From NCBI RefSeq assembly GCF_029919255.1, contig NZ_CP123991.1, positions 675,110 to 739,109 of the forward strand: 64,000 nt of DNA. The letters run 5' to 3'. The stretch comes from a cyanobacterium endosymbiont of Epithemia clementina EcSB (GTDB lineage Bacteria; Cyanobacteriota; Cyanobacteriia; Cyanobacteriales; Microcystaceae). This document shows positions 31,992-64,000 of the stretch, one piece after another. Each line of letters opens with the position of its first letter. Position 1 is the stretch's first letter. A program made the position numbers and the translations under genes. A model generated the notes under the pieces. The model worked only from the letters and a program-made list of their open reading frames with translations, had not been told where the DNA came from and made no database searches.

Positions 31992-32395
31992 AGCTTACTG
32001 TGTTAAGGAATCGGTTAGCTAAATTTCTTAAAATTTTCTGTATTCTCGTTAAGAATGTGTTACTAATTTCTTTAACACCACGGCCTATTATTGTAACTGT
32101 TAAGTAGATGGATATCACTAAAGTCAAATCTGTTTTACTGAGTACTCGGTATCTTACACTTTCTAAATCGCCCCTTATAAAAGGAAATTTTTTTGATATT
32201 CTCTTCCTTAAAAAAAGAAAATTTATCAGACTTTGTCTTACTTTTAAACGTTAAATGGATATTTTTAAAATACGTATTTTATTTGTAATTTTTAAGTAAA
32301 ATTCGAAAGAAGTAACTATTATTTATAATAACATTATTTAGAATAATAGCATTAAAATAGACAAAAAATCTTTATTAAATTAAATTAAATTTAAT

Positions 32396-32442
32396 AAAAT
32401 AGCTAACATAATTAGTAGCATAATAATTATGTTAGCTATTTT
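32396..32442. repeat. perfect inverted repeat, 19-bp arms
   Basis: AAAATAGCTAACATAATTA at 32396-32414 and its exact complement at 32424-32442 around a 9-nt loop. No gene lies within 400 bp. A weak T-run follows, so it could be an orphaned terminator. Confidence 0.7.
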
Positions 32443-33329
32443 GTGAGCCATCAAATTACTCTGGAATAAGAAAAGAGCTAAACTTTTAGATAAAAATACA
32501 AGACAATAGAAATTTTAAGAAATTGTATGTTTAGTTGAATTTCTGAAAAATATTTTTGGAAAAAATTTTCTAGATAAATGGTTCAAGAACAAAAATAATT
32601 ATGGACTTCTCCTAGAGGCGAGAACTAAAATTAACTGATAGAAAAAATCCGTATTTTTTAAAAAAAAGAGCTAGAAATAAAACTTAAAAAAGTGATAACG
32701 AGGATTAATCTATAAAATTACAGATAAAGAGACAGGTACAACCAAAAAATATGGTAAAGACAAAGCAATAGATACAGTAACTGTTTTTGATAATTACTGA
32801 ATGACTGGGTGTATACAAATGATTTAGTCAATGCCAAACTGAAATAATGAAATTTTTTTAAAAATATTTAAAGATAAATATGATTAAACTAACGTTGTTA
32901 AACAAAGTTTTTATCTGAAAAATATAAAATACGTCAAATAAAGTAAGTTAAATCTAAACTATTAGAACTACATAAAGCTAGAAAAATAAGATATTTTATG
33001 TTTTTAATAGTTATTTATGACTATTTATTTAGTGGTGTTAATTTAACTATTATTTTTAATTTAAAAACCTTGATTGTGTCTTGCCATACAAATAATTAAC
33101 TATTGCCAACTTTTAAAAAATTTGCTCTTCAATAGGTATCTTAAAGTAGTTTAAGATAATTACAGTTAAATTTTATTTTTCCCTTTTAATTCTTGAATTA
33201 TTGGTTCGTATTTAACATAATTTTCCCTATATTTTAAGATAAGAAACCGTGATTATACGTATAAATATAAACAGCTTTTATCATGAGACTTTGTTGACTT
33301 TTACAATCACTAAAATAATTTTTTTTTAC

Positions 33330-33642
33330 TTAAAATAAAGAGAGAACTGGCAAGAACATTGGGTAAGTCTCGAAAGACGCAATTATATAGATAATAGCTT
33401 TTCTCTCACTCCATAAGTCTCCCAATAATCTCCCGATATGGGTACAAAGTTTTTTAGCCCCCACTAAGAACTTCCCCGACCCAGTTATATCTCTGACTAT
33501 TACTATACTGCGAAAGTTAACATTGTTCACCGCAATTATAACAGTCACTCCAATCTATATCTAAATTGATGGTACTGAAGAGATTTTCCAGATCTACAAG
33601 AGCTATTTGTCTTCGTCGCTTTACTACAATAACTCCATAGTA
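33330..33642 (-). pseudogene. unidentified gene relic with a frameshift
   Basis: Two adjoining minus-strand frames with protein-like content: YYGVIVVKRRRQIALVDLEN and LDIDWSDCYNCGEQC ending in TAA, then in another frame NFRSIVIVRDITGSGKFLVG, AKKLCTHIGRLLGDLWSERK, to a TAA at 33330. The switch occurs near 33500-33550. I do not recognise the family. The C-x-x-C-G-x-x-C cluster could bind metal. Confidence 0.4.
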
Positions 33643-33897
33643 TTTAAGTCTTTTAATAATTTAAGATTGCAATGTTATTGACTTTAATTGTTTTGAGAGA
33701 TTTAGTAATCAAAGAATTATATAGACTTTATCAAATGCTAATTTAATAAAATTAATCCTGATTTACATAATTGGAAAGCGTGTCAATCATGCAAATGGGT
33801 GAAGAAGCGATAATAGTAATAGAGATAGGATTGGCACCAGATTCAGGATTTTTAGTTGCTCGAATTATTCTAGCTGATCCTTTCGGAGAAACTTCCT

Positions 33898-34218
33898 ATG
33901 AAGAGAATTTTTGTCTTGGAATTGCTGGTAACTACCTTGTTCATCGGTTCGTTCTCATTATTTACCTCTCCAGTCAAGGCTCAAATTATAGAACTGGGTG
34001 ATGATGTTCGCATCGATTTTTCTAATGAACGCCGTCGCCGTCGTGGAACTAAAATAAGAATGTATCCTGAAAATGGTCGCCTCAATGTAGGATTAGAAGA
34101 AGAAAGAAGACCTCAAACGAGAATCAGGGTACTTGATCTCAATAGTTCTCCTTCTATTGATGTTCGTGAGGAGAAGCCAGCTTCTGAAGAAAAAGTTAGG
34201 TTCTTTCTTCCTTTCTAA
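33898..34218 (+). CDS. small exported protein of unknown function
   Basis: 106 residues. A clear signal peptide (MKRIFVLELLVTTLFIGSFS, cleavage probably after VKA near residue 29) leads to a charged mature part with an arginine run (NERRRRRGTKIRMYPE) and later Arg/Glu-rich segments. GGAGA lies about 10 bp upstream. An alternative frame from 33771 overlaps and is not favoured. I do not recognise a family. The codons look ordinary and the frame is uninterrupted amid decayed DNA, which suggests selection. Confidence 0.55.
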   Translation: MKRIFVLELLVTTLFIGSFSLFTSPVKAQIIELGDDVRIDFSNERRRRRGTKIRMYPENGRLNVGLEEERRPQTRIRVLDLNSSPSIDVREEKPASEEKVRFFLPF

Positions 34219-34458
34219 TAGATAGGCACGAAAAGTATCTAGTTTTAGTAGCAAAATATACAGTTAAGGTTTTTTTGTATTTATCATTAACTAACCTGAT
34301 TTACTTAAGAGGCCACGCAAGTTGTATAAAGTATGTACTTGGTAAACTCGGAAAAACTGTAGACCCTTTATTTTAGACTAAATGATGGGCGAGATATAAA
34401 CTATTTAAATTCATTGGGACACAAAACAAGTTTTGTTTTGTAGAGGTTTTGTCCGTTG

Positions 34459-34508
34459 CAACGACACGTCCACGCATGTAGATATCTACATGCGTGGACG
34501 TGTCGTTG
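34459..34508. repeat. perfect 50-bp palindrome
   Basis: Each 25-bp half, beginning CAACGACACGTCCACGCATG, is the exact complement of the other, meeting at GATATC without a spacer. It is much richer in G+C than the surrounding DNA. It has no T-run and lies about 240 bp from the nearest gene, so it is not a typical terminator. It may be a mobile palindromic repeat. Confidence 0.85.
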
Positions 34509-35036
34509 GTGAGCAGTTGCTTGATTAACGGTAAATCCAGTTAACAATTCTCTAAACCTTGTCTAACTAAAATAACTTTTTACTAAGTTTAATTGTATTT
34601 TTTCAAAAATTTTGGTACGGTCTGGTAGGGCACGATAACTGTCAGTTTCTATAATTGTGATGAACGTTTTCTTGAAGATAGTCTCCTTAAAAAGGAGGTA
34701 CAAACTCCTCGAAACAAGAGAAAATAATCACGCCTAGCAAACGTTTATAACATTTTTTTTAACAGCTTTTTTGTAATTGCCTTTTACTTCCGTGAAATTG
34801 TTAATATAATTGATTCCAAACTACAGCAAAGGTAAAAAACTTACTGTATAATTGAGAATTATAGAGCTGTTTACAAGATTACTTTATTAATTCTTTTTGT
34901 CAAAACTGAAAGAGACTTATTAACTAAACCTAAGTTATTAATTCTATTTAATAAGCTACTTCAGCTAATTCCGTAATTTATCCTCGCTTATCTAAGGTTT
35001 AAAATAACTGTTTAGGTAAGTAATTAGTGAACTTTT

Positions 35037-35235
35037 TTATTCACCAATTCTAACAAGTATTTTCTCTGCTCCAACCCCTGAAAAACTTTGATTTTGTTCA
35101 TAAACATAGCTAATTAAATCTAGTTTGAATGTAACGTCAAGAATCTTGAAAAGCTTCCATTAATTCATAATCAAAAGGACCTGCTGCTAAATTATAAATT
35201 TACTCTCCTAAAAAATCAATAATAAAACTTACCAA
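35037..35235 (-). pseudogene. unidentified gene relic downstream of cysK
   Basis: Minus-strand fragments NLAAGPFDYELMEAFQDS (ending in TGA) and, one frame over, FKLDLISYVYEQNQSFSG, GVGAEKILVRIGE, TAA. The pieces join naturally across a frameshift near 35140. Composition is clearly protein-like. I do not recognise the product. Confidence 0.5.
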
Positions 35236-35477
35236 CCGAGCTTATAAATTAGAATATAAATTTATGGTAACTAAGAATATGAATTAATTTTTATGGCTTG
35301 TTGATCTTCTCGACGATATTTAAGACAAGTAGTCTAACTTAATTAGATCTAATTAAACGTGGATTTTCTTAAAGTTCAAAAATGAGGGCTCCAGTATTTA
35401 TTAGACAAGCTCTCAATAAACCTACCATGAACTTATCATTAATTTTGTTGGCGGACTTATCCTAAGATAACCAATTG

Positions 35478-36443
35478 TCAATATTGACAATTGTTCGGTT
35501 GAAGTGTTTCCAAACTTTCGAAGAGAGGAGTACTTAAGTAACGTTCCCCAAAACTAGGTTGAATCATAACAAGTAGTTTGCCTGTATTTTCGGGACGTTG
35601 AGCAACTTTAATAGCAGCAGCTAAAGCTGCCCCCGTAGAAATTCCTGACAATAGCCCTTCTTCTCTAGCTAAACGACGACTATAAATAATAGCTTCATCA
35701 TCAGTCACCGTTACTACCTCGTTAATTAGCTCTACTTTGAGAACTTTAGGAATAAAACCTGCCCCTATCCCTTGAATTTTGTGACCGCCAGGGCTTCCTC
35801 CTGATAAGACAGGACTATTAGCCGGTTCAACGGCGATTGCCTGAAAAGTTGGTTTACGTTGTTTAAGTACTTCAGCTACTCCAGTGATAGTTCCTCCAGT
35901 ACCCACTCCGGCAATGAGGATGTCTACCCGGCCATTTGTGTCTTCCCAAATTTCTTGAGCAGTGGTTTGGCGATGAATTTCAGGATTAGCAGGGTTGTTA
36001 AATTGTTGCAGCATGTAGGCATTGGGCAAAGTCCTCACCAGCTCATCAGCACGTCGAATACAGCCACTCATCCCTTCAGTTCCGGGGGTTAACTCTAATT
36101 GCGCACCATAGGCTTTTAACATCGCCCGTCGCTCTTGACTCATGGTTTCTGGCATAGTCAAAATTAGTTTATATCCTTTGGCAGCTGCGGCCATAGCTAA
36201 TGCAATCCCCGTATTACCGGAAGTAGGTTCAACTAAAAGAGTTTTACCAGCAACAATTAGTCCTTCCCGTTCTGCGGCATTAATCATATTTACCCCAATA
36301 CGGTCTTTTACTGAAGCCGATGGGTTCATTCCCTCTAATTTCACAACAATCTGAGCCACACATCTCTCTGCTTGAGGAATATGGTTTAATTGCACTAGCG
36401 GGGTCCGGCCAATTAACTCTGTAATGTTGTGGGCAATTCTCAT
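35478..36443 (-). CDS. cysK: cysteine synthase A
   Basis: O-acetylserine sulfhydrylase, PLP-dependent, makes cysteine from O-acetylserine and sulfide. 321 residues, the usual length. The PLP lysine is in [11 protein letters not shown]; the substrate loop is [12 protein letters not shown]; the phosphate-binding glycine loop is [10 protein letters not shown]; the PLP ring serine is in the [10 protein letters not shown] region. Start [20 protein letters not shown]. Intact and apparently monocistronic. Confidence 0.95.
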
Positions 36444-45589: not shown

Positions 45590-45946
45590 TCAAGGAAATT
45601 TACTAGTAACTTTACCAATAATATTACGAAGCTTTATAAAGCCAAAATGCCGACTATCATTGCTTTCTGTTCTATTTTCTCCCAATAAAAAACAGTCACC
45701 ATTGTTGTCAACCAAAACAGCTCGTTTAATAATTATTAAATCTTGATGGTGAGGGTGCCTAGCTACGACTAAATCCCCTATTTCGGGTAAATGGCGGCGG
45801 TAGGCTCTTGTGTCCACAAGGACCTCCTCTCCTGCTTTAAGCAGGGGAAACATAGAAGCCCCTGTAACACAAAACCGTTGACGCAATCTTAACAACCAAA
45901 GAAGTAATTCTTTATTTTCACTAGTAAGGATCAACTGTATGCCCAC
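45590..45946 (-). CDS. sodX: nickel-type superoxide dismutase maturation protease
   Basis: 118-residue S26-type (signal-peptidase-like) serine protease that trims the SodN propeptide to expose the nickel-binding histidine. Catalytic serine in FCVTGASMFPLLKAGEEVLV; catalytic lysine in DLIIIKRAVL; FLLGENRTESNDSRHFGFI is the conserved C-terminal box. Starts at GTG 18 bp downstream of sodN, so they form an operon. Intact. Confidence 0.93.
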   Translation of the reverse strand: MGIQLILTSENKELLLWLLRLRQRFCVTGASMFPLLKAGEEVLVDTRAYRRHLPEIGDLVVARHPHHQDLIIIKRAVLVDNNGDCFLLGENRTESNDSRHFGFIKLRNIIGKVTSKFP

Positions 45947-45964
45947 TACCTCAAATAAACAAAT

Positions 45965-46423
45965 CTAGCTAGCTTTTACCCAGGCTATATCCCGATTCTT
46001 GCTGGACCAGAACATAGTATGAATTTTCTCAACAGTAGCAAGTAATTCGGTGGCCTGGTCCAAGCTAACTTCTACCTTGCACGCAGAGCAAAGTTTAGCA
46101 GCCTTCCAAAAAGTATTATGAAGATCAGGATATTTTTCTAAATGTACAGGTTTAAAGTAGTCAGTCCAAAGGATAAGTAATTCTTCTTTAGTCTTTTGTG
46201 CTTGCTCTTCCTTAATTGCAATATAGCGGGAAAGGGTATTAGCAGTGGCATGATCTCCGACAGAAGGATTAAGGTCTAGTATCTTCTTAGTCATAGATAA
46301 TACTGCTTCAGCGTAGATGCGAGCAGAGGCGGGATCATAAACACCACAAGGCCCATCGCAGTGAGCACTAACTTCTGGCGCGCGGAAGTGTTTTTTAATT
46401 TGAGTAGCAATTGTGTTGAGCAT
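45965..46423 (-). CDS. sodN: nickel superoxide dismutase
   Basis: Cytosolic Ni-SOD converting superoxide to oxygen and peroxide. 152 residues including a propeptide of about 20 residues; the mature enzyme starts at the nickel hook HCDGPCGVYDP (His1, Cys2 and Cys6 as ligands). The rest is the usual four-helix bundle (IYAEAVLSMTKKILDLN, IAWVKAS end). Expressed with sodX. Ni-SOD protects iron-sulfur enzymes without needing iron, which suits a nitrogen-fixing relative. Confidence 0.96.
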   Translation of the reverse strand: MLNTIATQIKKHFRAPEVSAHCDGPCGVYDPASARIYAEAVLSMTKKILDLNPSVGDHATANTLSRYIAIKEEQAQKTKEELLILWTDYFKPVHLEKYPDLHNTFWKAAKLCSACKVEVSLDQATELLATVEKIHTMFWSSKNRDIAWVKAS

Positions 46424-46769: not shown

Positions 46770-47753
46770 CTAGCTGGTTTCTGCTTGTACCCGTTCAATT
46801 AGTAATCGTACTTCATCAGTCCCTTCTGACAGTTCAAAAGAGAGGGTAAACTTACCACTGACTACCATTCGTAACCCTAAAGGAGCAAGACTAAACAATC
46901 CTTTTAAATCTTTCAAATAATTCCCTACTACAAATAATCCAAACTTACGCTCATCAATCCATCCCCCTTGTTTGACTAAGTCTACCAAAACCTTACGATG
47001 GCGAATGGCACGACTATCTCGAAAATTTTTTTGAGCCAAAATTTCTTGTTTAATGTAACCAATTTGGTCCATGGGGAAAACACCTATGGGACAAATTGCG
47101 TTACAAAAATAGCAACGAGTACACCCCCAAACTCCTTTGGTTTCGTCATTTTAGGTTTCTAAACGAGTTTCAGTTTCTGTATCCTGTGAATCGACTATCA
47201 TACGTTGTGTTTTAGCAAGAGCGTGAGGACCAACAAAATCGGGGTTAACCGTAAGAGCGTTACATTCGGAATAACAGACTCCACACATGATATAGCTGCT
47301 GGTCTGATTGAGACGTAATCGCTCTTTGGGGGTTTGCAGAAATTCCCGTTCAAAAATAGAATTTGCCTTGAGCCTGACATAGGGTTCTATAGCTTCTAAT
47401 TTTTTCCAAAAAAGGGCCATATCCACTACCAAATCCTTAACTACTGGGAGATTTTTTAGAGGAGCAATAGTCATGGTTGGTAGTTTTTCCTTTCCGGAGT
47501 GTCCAAATTTTTCAAGTTCACTGCCCACATTTTCTTTACAAGCAAGGGCAGAACGACCATTAATTCTCATGCTACAACTACCACAGATCGTATTACGACA
47601 ATTTTTGCGAAAGGCAAGGGTTCCATCTTTTTCCCATTTAATACGATTGAGGCAATCTAAAATAGTTGCGTTTGACTCCACGTCCAAGTTATAAGTCTGT
47701 AAATGAGGTGTTTTATTAGACTTTTGTCGCATAATTTTAAATTGAACTTTCAT
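46770..47753 (-). pseudogene. sdhB: succinate dehydrogenase iron-sulfur subunit, one in-frame stop
   Basis: Iron-sulfur subunit of the SDH/fumarate reductase family. The frame from ATG 47753 has the 2Fe-2S cysteines (CRNTICGSCSMRINGRSALAC) and the first 4Fe-4S group (CGVCYSECNALTV). It then meets a TAA at 47151-47153. Without any frame change the next 26 codons continue (NDETKGVWGCTRCYFCNAIC, PIGVFPMDQIG) into a 100-residue open frame ending at 46770. Together they give about 326 residues, the usual cyanobacterial length. A tyrosine codon turned TAA would explain it. All cysteine ligands survive. It may be a very young pseudogene, a read-through gene or a sequencing error. Confidence 0.88.
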
Positions 47754-59672: not shown

Positions 59673-60419
59673 ATTTAGACTAAATTTATTAAATAATAGG
59701 TAGTACATATAAATAAATATTATCCAAATTAGCCTGGATAATATTTTACTGAATTATTGAAATTAAAACACTTCTTATTTATGAGTAGTTAGTTAATATT
59801 AAAAATAAATTTTATTTTTAATATAGAAAGAGAGGGTAATAAATAAAAAAAAAGTTGATATTTATTTTTAATAAAAATTTCTGATAGTTTAAATACCATA
59901 AATACCAGTCGTTGTTTTGTATACTATTTCAATAAGTAGAACTCTTCATAGAAAATCTGATATTAGGTAACGGTTAATTCCTCTAAAATTTAGAATCTCA
60001 TTTATTAAACTGAGTTGAGAGTTTGACGCCATATGGATAAATAAAGTTAAAATTTTGAATACAGTACAATTAGGTTTAAATGAAAAATTTAGTGTAGTAT
60101 TGTCTGTCTAATAGATAGAGTTTTTGATAAGTATATTTATTGAGTATCAAACTTTGTATTTATATTTTTTGTATTGATATAACAGGTCTGATAAAATCCT
60201 AAAATGTTAAATGTTACCGTAATGATCTAAATCTATATAATCGACTGTTTGGTAGGCTAAACAGCCCGCAAATAAATCTCCACACTAATAATTAAACTAA
60301 TTGCATCATAAAAAAACAATATTTATAGATAAATAAATAGATTTAATAATATTTAATAGTTAAAAATCTAGAATTTAGAATTTTATAAAAAAATCTCATT
60401 ATACTTGATATTTACAATT

Positions 60420-60580
60420 GTAGGTAATTATTAACCAACCATAGTTTTCTTCTGATTTAATTAAATTCAATTTATCCCCACCAAGGGAACTGTGTTCCCT
60501 TTACCAAATCTGACCTGTTACTTTCTCAACCGTTAACCCACGAATATTTTGGATGGCATCGTCAGCGTCTTTAAACTCTA
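60420..60580 (-). pseudogene. unidentified gene relic, one in-frame stop
   Basis: One minus-strand frame reads EFKDADDAIQNIRGLTVEKV, TGQIW, TAA, REHSSLGGDKLNLIKSEENY, GWLIITYN. Both sides of the stop are in the same frame and clearly protein-like. Family not recognised. No start codon is identifiable. Confidence 0.45.
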
Positions 60581-61452
60581 GAAAAAGTCATAATCAAAGA
60601 ATTATTTATCATAATTTAATCGGATAATTTTACTTCAATTACTACCAATATTCTGCGCTTATAAAAGTATTTTAATCTGTGAAAGCCAAACCAAACAAGA
60701 ATCAAAGTGTTGTCTCACTAACTTCACAGAATAAATTTAAAAGATTACTTTTAAGTTTTGTAAAACCAAATACTCAAAGGGGGACAGGCAATACATCTCT
60801 AGTTTGCTTGAGTGGTTTCGTGAGAATAGATGAGATAAGCAAGACGATTTTCAGTCAAATTCCGGTTTAATGACACCTACATCGGTCCTCCTTTTAGATT
60901 AAATTTACTTAACGTGGAAAGATATATTTTATGAGTAAATCAGAACAAATTTTTGAACGATCAATTTATCTTTAAATCAGCAATAAACTTTTTAATATAA
61001 AGGTCAGATTTTCCTCTAGCTATTAAGTTAGCTAGTTTAACTTAATAAGAACATGTTAAAGTAGAAGCAATAGTCAAAAAAATCTTAGTAATGATTGATT
61101 AATTTAGTTATAAAAACTGGGCATAAGTAAAAATATAATTGTACTTTTTACTAAATTAAATTTATACAGATATTGATAAAAATTTAGATTTTTTAGCTAA
61201 TTCCTTAAAAAATAATCCTAATTTTGATTTTCCTAAAGAAATCAATGATTTTGTAAGATATATACTAGCCGCAGATAATTGTGTTAGATCTTAACATACT
61301 TATAAAGAAAATAATTAAAGACTATATAAAAAACAGACTAACTATTTAATTCAATTCGATTTAATTTTTTCTGAAAAAAAGAAAACCATCACAACGATTT
61401 TAATAAAATGAATAAGTATTAATAAGTAGTTAAAATAACTATAAGTCACATA

Positions 61453-61483
61453 TATCAAATGATTAATTATTAATCATTTGATA
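61453..61483. repeat. perfect inverted repeat, 14-bp arms
   Basis: TATCAAATGATTAA and its exact complement around TTA. Located in gene-free DNA, close to an AAAT tetranucleotide run. Confidence 0.65.
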
Positions 61484-61944
61484 CTATATATTGATCTACT
61501 AAATAAATAAATAAATAAATCATATCATATAAAATATATGCTCATATGAAACAATAAAAATTAGGTACGAATCATAAAGTTGGTACAGAAATAGTTAAAA
61601 AAAACTTTGCCTAGATCTTAGTGAAAATATTAATTCTCTTGAAAGAAAGTAAAATTTAATTTTGAGAGTAAAGGTGCGGTTATTTAGATTTAATTTTTAT
61701 TAAAATTTATATCTGGACCTTTATGTTCTTAATATTTTTACTTTGAAAAAATATTCAATGTTTATTCAGCAGTTTATATTTTTATTAATTTTAATCTGTT
61801 TAGCTATAATTTTGGTTTCTATTGTACTTCTTTCTCAATTGTTACAACGATAAGTTAACATAAAGACCGTAGATGAATATCTTATGTTAACGGTAACTAT
61901 AAATTATGTTTAAAATTATACAAACAGTAGCTTAATGTTAATTT

Positions 61945-62101
61945 TGAATAACGAGTCGAGTAAAGCCAGGGAGTTTATTCGTAAAACGGTACAAACTTTT
62001 GGGGTGCGGAAAATCTCTGAGAGGTTTAGACAATTATCAGGGGACAATGTCTGATGTGATTGAGCGATTATTGAGATATCGGTTGTTAGAAGATAAGTAG
62101 C
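61945..62101 (+). pseudogene. unidentified short relic
   Basis: A 47-codon frame without a start (VKPGSLFVKRYKLLGCGKSL, RGLDNYQGTMSDVIERLLRY, RLLEDK, TAG) at higher GC than its surroundings. The end resembles tails of small ribbon-helix-helix-type proteins, but that is a guess. Confidence 0.3.
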
Positions 62102-63366
62102 TTTTTGATACTCTTGTCCTTTAAAAGTTAATAATATTAGTTGCTTAAAGTGTTACGGGGAGCCTGAAAATGCTTTTTTTAAAAAAATGGTAAATTTATG
62201 GTGATCGCAATGGTTGCGGTTGACAGTTAGTTCGTTTGTCCATCATTCAAACGTAAAGTAAAAAAACGATGTAGCTATCACTAATAATTAACGTAATATT
62301 TTCTTCTTAATCATCAGTCAAATTTCTATAAAATTGTTTTTTTCAGTTGTTCTAGTAAAGTAAATAATCGTAGCAAAATTAACTTGGTTACATCAATAAA
62401 GACTAGGTCTGTAAGTTTAAGTCATTAAAGTCTTATCTAATATAAGAGTCTCGAAGTTTGTCCCAAATTTTTATAAACCTTAAAAGGCATAAAGTATTTT
62501 TTTTGTTAATTTAAGTTTTTTAAAGTAAAAATGCTAGATTTACTAACTTTAATGTTTATCTTGTTGTGCGAGTAGTCACTTAGTAAGTGTAGAGAAACGT
62601 TGTGATTCTGTTCTCGCAATTATTCAACAATCTCAAGTTATTTTTTCTCAAGTAAAGGGTGATTTTTTTAAAAAATAAGGTAATAATTTTATTCTTTTCA
62701 TGGTTTTCTAGCGTCCAAAGATATGATTAACGAATCTATACCAAAATTTTAAAAAACATGTTAGTTGTTGTGTTGATTAATTGGTCTTATTGTTAGTTTA
62801 TCTAACTTTAGTGGAAATATCTATCGAGTACAGCTTCGTTTTTTGATGCAACTAATATTTTTTTGTTTTTTTCACTATAATCTATCCAAATAAAACTCAC
62901 TATGAATTAGAATACCACCTACTCTATCTGATGTTTGCTATCTTCATTGTTATAGTTGTTCAATGACCATTGAAGTAATTAACTACTTACTTAAGATAAA
63001 AGTTGTTTTACCTATCAATCAACTTATACAAACAATATGTCAATTATAGAGATAGTGTTTTTTCCTATGTTCAAGCATCATCAAATAGAACTAATAAACT
63101 TTAATTCATTGGTTAAGCGTCAATACGAAATAGAACAGCGATCACATATTTTTTAGTAGATTATCTATGGGTTGTTTCAGGACAACAAGAGCTATGGTAT
63201 TTTGCGGTAAAACTTCGAAGCAGCATTTTTAACAATTGCGCTTAGAACAAAATTTGTGAGATACCATCGATGTAATAGCAATTCATTGTTGACTACCAAG
63301 CTATTGTTAATCTGACAATTGGTTTGATCATTTGTGTTAAATTTAGAAGTTAGTCCTCCAAATTAA

Positions 63367-63543
63367 GATATTGTCTCTATTACGTTAGGTGATTGTTTAG
63401 AAATGGCAGGAATCGCTAAAGGGAGTGAAACCCTACAGCAAGTTCATTATCTCAAAATACTGGACTGTAAATTAATGTGAGGTTATTCCTTTTTTAAACA
63501 TCTCATGGCAGAAAAGGTTGTTTTTTTTAAAAAAAATCCCTAG
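63367..63543 (+). pseudogene. unidentified gene relic
   Basis: Frame with DIVSITLGDCLEMAGIAKGS, ETLQQVHYLKILDCKLM, TGA, GYSFFKHLMAEKVVFFKK, TAG. Upstream to about 62780 similar but more broken pieces occur (SGNIYRVQLRFLMQLIFF; LVKRQYEIEQRSHIF), so a gene of several hundred codons may have died here. Not recognised. Confidence 0.4.
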
Positions 63544-63704
63544 ATATTAATACTTTTACTTTAATATTTTAAAAATCATCATTCTCTTTATCTCCAACGG
63601 TTAAACTGCAGCCAAACTACCTCCATTATTACTACCAGAACTAAGTAGGTGAGCTCAAATTAAGTCTAAAATAGAAAAGTAGTTAAAAAAGAGCAATCAT
63701 CTAG

Positions 63705-64000
63705 ATGCCGGCCTGCCTCAAAATTCAGCTAACAAAATTAGAAGAGCAAGAACTATTAAAGTTAACCCACGATCCAAAAATTCCCTCCAGAACTAGAACA
63801 AGAGCAGAGATTTTATGTTTAAATGCAAGAGGATGGAAAGTTAAAGAAATTGCAGATTGGGTTAAATTATCAGAGAATACAATTAGAAAAACGATTTCTA
63901 GATGGATTATTCAAGGAAAAGAAGGACTGTGGGATCTTCCGAGAAGCGGAAGAAAAAGAACTTGGAAAGAAGAAGATATAAAATATTTGGAAGAACTATC
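63705..64000 (+). mobile_element. IS630-type transposase, N-terminus, cut by window edge
   Basis: 98 codons open from ATG 63705 to the window end. The N-terminal helix-turn-helix is typical of the IS630/Tc1-mariner group: RTRTRAEILCLNARGWKVKE, IADWVKLSENTIRKTISRW and GKEGLWDLPRSGRKRTW, as at the start of a winged-helix DNA-binding domain. The DDE catalytic domain lies beyond the window. The left inverted repeat was not identified. So far it is uninterrupted, so the element may be recent. Confidence 0.82.

Follow-up and report, generated by a model that had tools for sequence, protein, structure and literature searches.

The sdhB gene described here is almost certainly a recent pseudogene in an obligate, N2-fixing cyanobacterial endosymbiont of a rhopalodiacean diatom (Epithemia clementina EcSB), with no working succinate dehydrogenase (SDH) and with relaxed selection. 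The sdhB lesion is ordinary reductive evolution, since the partner gene sdhA is broken and the same two genes are differently broken in three related endosymbionts. The genome is 3,072,807 bases in size, in one contig, 99.78% complete. It groups with the endosymbionts (spheroid bodies, diazoplasts) of rhopalodiacean diatoms. The window, i.e., the whole stretch of DNA analysed (64,000 nt), is G000:C1:675110-739109, G000 being the genome of this endosymbiont. The genus sample consists of seven genomes, G000 included. The four endosymbionts are G000, the Rhopalodia gibberula spheroid body (G005; 3,020,309 bases), the Epithemia turgida spheroid body (G002; 2,794,318 bases) and G003 (2,483,960 bases), probably the marine Epithemia endosymbiont EpSB. 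The three free-living members are PCC 8801 (G006; 4,679,413 bases), SU2 (G001) and Cyanothece sp. UBA12306 (G004).

The sdhB locus and its cluster-motif cysteines

Features of the locus, in positions of the window, are as follows.
46770..47753, minus strand: sdhB pseudogene; iron-sulfur subunit of succinate dehydrogenase/fumarate reductase, cyanobacterial NF009227 type.
47538..47600, minus strand: N-terminal cysteines, codons 52, 57, 60 and 72, all kept.
47292..47294, minus strand: codon 154, TAT (Tyr), replacing the first Cys of CxxCxxC.
47151..47153, minus strand: in-frame TAA, codon 201, preceded by 200 codons; Tyr in 80/80 compared loci.
47091..47123, minus strand: C-terminal cluster-motif cysteines, codons 211, 214, 217 and 221, kept; past the stop and before the ATG at 47072.
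47070..47072, minus strand: ATG, the nearest in-frame start downstream of the stop (ATG, GTG and TTG considered).

The frame is 327 codons long, the TAA counted in, and is followed by the final stop. Its two halves match adjoining parts of NF009227 in profile searches, so one gene is split by the single in-frame TAA, as the sequence-only reading had stated. The upstream half (200 residues) corresponds to profile positions 1-199 (E 1.4e-101), the downstream half (126 residues) to positions 202-326 (E 3.7e-60). Scores are 339.5 and 203.3 bits, each below the family cut-off of 349 bits; an uninterrupted relative reaches 622.8 bits. A functional SdhB (NF009227 / TIGR00384) would be open without interruption along the full profile, which this gene is not; its frame is disrupted, as in a pseudogene. 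The TAA is the sole frame-disrupting lesion of sdhB in this genome. No stop lies within the best match in any of the 80 compared loci (the best 80 of 200 from a relative scan, all 80 aligned), and Tyr201 is present in all of them; the interruption is thus far from the family norm. The titles of these loci are nearly all cyanobacterial, with one Gracilibacteria MAG. Loci are picked by short peptide patterns, some containing motif cysteines, so that close relatives are favoured. A second intact sdhB is absent from the genome; the sole other match, 69 residues long, is 36% identical and has five stops.

All 12 cluster-motif Cys columns checked are invariant in the 80 loci. A functional SdhB would possess all of them; the sdhB of the window has 11 if the TAA is read through, and 4 of these 11 sit downstream of the TAA. 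Codon 154 is Cys in 80/80 loci and in the three other endosymbionts, being in relatives the first Cys of the motif CIMCGAC. The cysteines of the CxxCxxC motif with codon 154 are presumably [4Fe-4S] cluster ligands, as in solved SdhB structures; those at codons 52, 57, 60 and 72 are taken to be [2Fe-2S] cluster ligands. Reading through the stop had been said to leave every Fe-S cysteine in place. It does not: codon 154 is Tyr here, and a full-length read-through product, missing this motif cysteine, would not be intact. Nor does one substitution separate this sequence from a working gene, as had also been claimed, since Cys154 is lost and sdhA is broken.

Read-through or recoding of the TAA to full-length SdhB is extremely unlikely. 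The frame is open past the TAA and the downstream sequence still matches the family, but the TAA is read by none of the 39 tRNAs found (RF00005 search, ARAGORN typing; 150 of 244 first-look candidates scored); intron-bearing tRNAs could be missed by this search, and tRNA-Leu(UAA), often intron-bearing in cyanobacteria, is not among the 39. Of the 33 ORFs in the window that are 120 aa or longer, 16 terminate in TAA. The read-through product would be without Cys154 and without an SdhA partner. The probability of a split gene, with a 200-aa N-terminal piece assembling with a 100-aa C-terminal piece that begins at ATG 47072, is negligible. This in-frame ATG, pointed out earlier, is present and both pieces are ORFs; it lies past cysteines 211, 214, 217 and 221, so that those four would be in neither piece, and Cys154 is gone too. 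The proposal of read-through or a split protein is therefore unsupported, for want of a TAA-reading tRNA among the 39 and with reinitiation only after four motif cysteines.

The 33 counted ORFs occupy just 53% of the window. ORFs of at least 120 aa are absent from 31992-35477 and 59673-64000, and these ORF-poor stretches are probably degraded genes. RNA families (gathering threshold) and tRNAs were not found within the 64,000-nt window. A nickel superoxide dismutase gene, sodN, and the gene of its maturation protease, sodX (window 45590-46423, minus strand), lie directly downstream of sdhB in 4/4 endosymbionts; the 10 kb surrounding sdhB in SU2 and in PCC 8801 gave no sodN/sodX match. A gene at window 35478-36443 (minus strand), presumably cysteine synthase-like by its N-terminus, is open, with 321 codons. 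Its copy in G005 (L179 11081-12043) is 96.6% identical and is interrupted close to the C-terminus by a stop at codon 311.

SdhA and the lesions of related endosymbionts

The sdhA gene is located at about C1:211884-213590 and contains five in-frame stops and three frame changes. An intact SdhA partner, as expected beside a functional SdhB, is absent from the genome, which answers the earlier call to check sdhA integrity. An intact SdhA-like gene at C1:2460907-2462466 was considered as a second sdhA and rejected; it is an L-aspartate oxidase, above cut-off for NF005636 / TIGR00551. As sdhA is in a worse state, the TAA of sdhB is, by lesion counts, probably not the first lesion of SDH. With sdhB truncated, Cys154 lost and sdhA ruined, a working succinate dehydrogenase (complex II) is, at the level of sequence, not encoded by this genome. 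The idea of TCA or respiratory decay caught in the act is correct as to decay, but sdhA has already accumulated its five stops and three frame changes, and the decay extends beyond this genome: sdhA and sdhB are both broken in 4/4 endosymbionts, and both open in all three free-living genus members (G001, G004, G006).

Comparison with related strains, as the sequence-only reading had advised, reveals sdhB broken at other sites in the three related endosymbionts. The G005 copy carries two stops, E79* and one at codon 206, together with a 1-bp deletion. In G003 the lesion is a 1-bp deletion within a G run near codon 263, with no stop ahead of it. The ATG is gone and stops are many in G002. The sdhA of G005 has two stops, that of G003 one (W59*, alignment numbering), and that of G002 is a short remnant. 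Codon 201 of sdhB is TAT in 3/3 free-living genomes, CAT in G005 and G002, CAA in G003 and TAA in G000. A change of Tyr to stop, earlier called probable, is plausible from the TAT of the free-living genomes, but the sister endosymbionts have other codons, so the last sense codon at 201 is uncertain.

An error of sequencing or assembly, with the TAA spurious and the rest of sdhB open throughout, is very unlikely. It is favoured by the TAA being the only frame-disrupting lesion in sdhB, and opposed by the loss of Cys154, the stops and frame changes of sdhA, and the breakage of sdhB elsewhere in three related genomes. Were 47151-47153 in error, SDH would still be judged dead, given the Cys154 loss and the broken sdhA.

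No stop codon is common to any two endosymbionts (sdhA and sdhB, four genomes), which points to separate and fairly recent SDH losses among them. The 1-bp deletion in the G run near codon 263 is common in position to G002 and G003. A shared ancestral lesion was considered and rejected, as there is no common stop and this deletion is taken as independent slippage. Repeated slippage is preferred because neither the control tree nor the combined tree places G002 and G003 as sisters. Three control genes with sdhA and sdhB give the tree (G003,(G000,(G005,G002))) with support 97-100; the control genes alone give the same topology with support 85-100 (inner nodes 85-99). Against repeated slippage, the tree of sdhA alone pairs G002 with G003 (55), and G000 with G005 (82), while that of sdhB alone is weak (inner-node support 49-60). 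An older common silencing, e.g., of a promoter, may be compatible with the lack of a shared coding lesion.

Strength of selection

For sdhB the NG86 omega is 0.27 in the G000-G005 comparison and 0.08-0.10 among free-living relatives; for sdhA the values are 0.29 and 0.05-0.07. In 29 other ORFs of the window, each 120 aa or longer, the median G000-G005 omega is 0.116, with 2/29 at 0.27 or above; the 29 were obtained from 35 ORFs by dropping sdhB, one ORF nested on the opposite strand and four unmatched in the fetched G005 stretch. The omega of sdhB and sdhA is clearly raised against the free-living rate of the same genes and lies inside the range of the genes of this genome. Purifying selection is relaxed, as in a pseudogene, and an omega of 0.27 that is not outside the range of the other genes counts against the pseudogene, as does the presence of just one disrupting lesion in an sdhB otherwise well conserved.

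Changes private to G000 were scored only where the outgroup SU2 and the sister agree. In sdhB the non-synonymous:synonymous counts are 8:18 upstream of the stop and 6:15 downstream; in sdhA, 48:63. The sdhB ratios indicate that most of the G000 branch was still constrained. Being alike on both sides of the stop, they give no hint of the N-terminal piece of SdhB alone being kept. Of 252 sdhB positions identical across the three free-living relatives, 218 are kept. From these counts sdhA looks more relaxed than sdhB, and the omega pattern fits a recent loss following long constraint.

Respiratory context and significance

Fumarase (fumC) is intact in 4/4 endosymbionts and in both free-living genomes searched (G001, G006). 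Malate dehydrogenase (TIGR01763) is above cut-off in the same two free-living genomes; G002, G003 and G005 give no match. A malate dehydrogenase remnant with eight stops is located at G000:C1:632399-632899. According to the main texts of published work, the TCA cycle of these symbionts is partial, ending at succinate or earlier (PMC12903740, PMC11070190); the symbionts lack many TCA genes, with the oxidative pentose phosphate pathway as their main route (PMC11070190). Table 1 of one of these papers gives three TCA proteins that free-living relatives conserve and that all six endosymbionts have lost (PMC12903740); SdhA, SdhB and malate dehydrogenase would fit these three. The texts on rhopalodiacean spheroid bodies give 99-286 pseudogenes per genome, varying by source (PMC5638926, PMC11131595). 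The sdhB of the window resembles the pseudogenes of the endosymbionts of E. turgida, R. gibberula, R. gibba and E. adnata, members of the same lineage. For UCYN-A (nitroplast) the main text of PMC12903740 states that the TCA cycle is wholly absent. An SdhB match is absent from G013 and G021, two genomes of the family of 1.4-1.5 Mb, probably UCYN-A. Unlike UCYN-A, the genome of the window keeps sdhB as a recent remnant, with fumarase intact.

The pseudogene is best explained as follows. The TAA cuts SdhB to 200 residues, with loss of the four C-terminal cluster-motif cysteines. In the published metabolic reading, the oxidative pentose phosphate pathway, with respiration, carries the host-fed carbon, the TCA branch being retained only to 2-oxoglutarate/succinate. 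Such carbon routing, we infer, would relax selection on SDH. Drift would then fix distinct lesions in the separate endosymbiont lineages, as the private stops and the tree suggest.

A more far-reaching reading, of low probability, is convergent SDH loss after the endosymbionts had split, a working sdhAB having long been kept in each lineage and then separately broken, with fumarase retained. If true, convergent loss of SDH would replace a single ancestral accident, and would suggest that selection acts against oxidation of succinate by the quinone pool in a symbiont that consumes O2 and fixes N2, or that each lineage was separately released from need. No description of sdhA or sdhB lesions was found in the main-text passages covered; in the main texts of PMC5638926, PMC12903740, PMC11131595 and PMC11070190 'sdh' occurs 0 times and 'succinate' once (PMC12903740). 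Modestly new is the parallel loss of SDH via different lesions, the loss itself being already implied in print. Alone, the stop in sdhB matters little, as another pseudogene in a genome of the shrinking kind. Taken together, the four endosymbionts present different stages and lesions of one enzyme, and SDH is convenient for timing the loss of this respiratory entry in organelle-like reduction.
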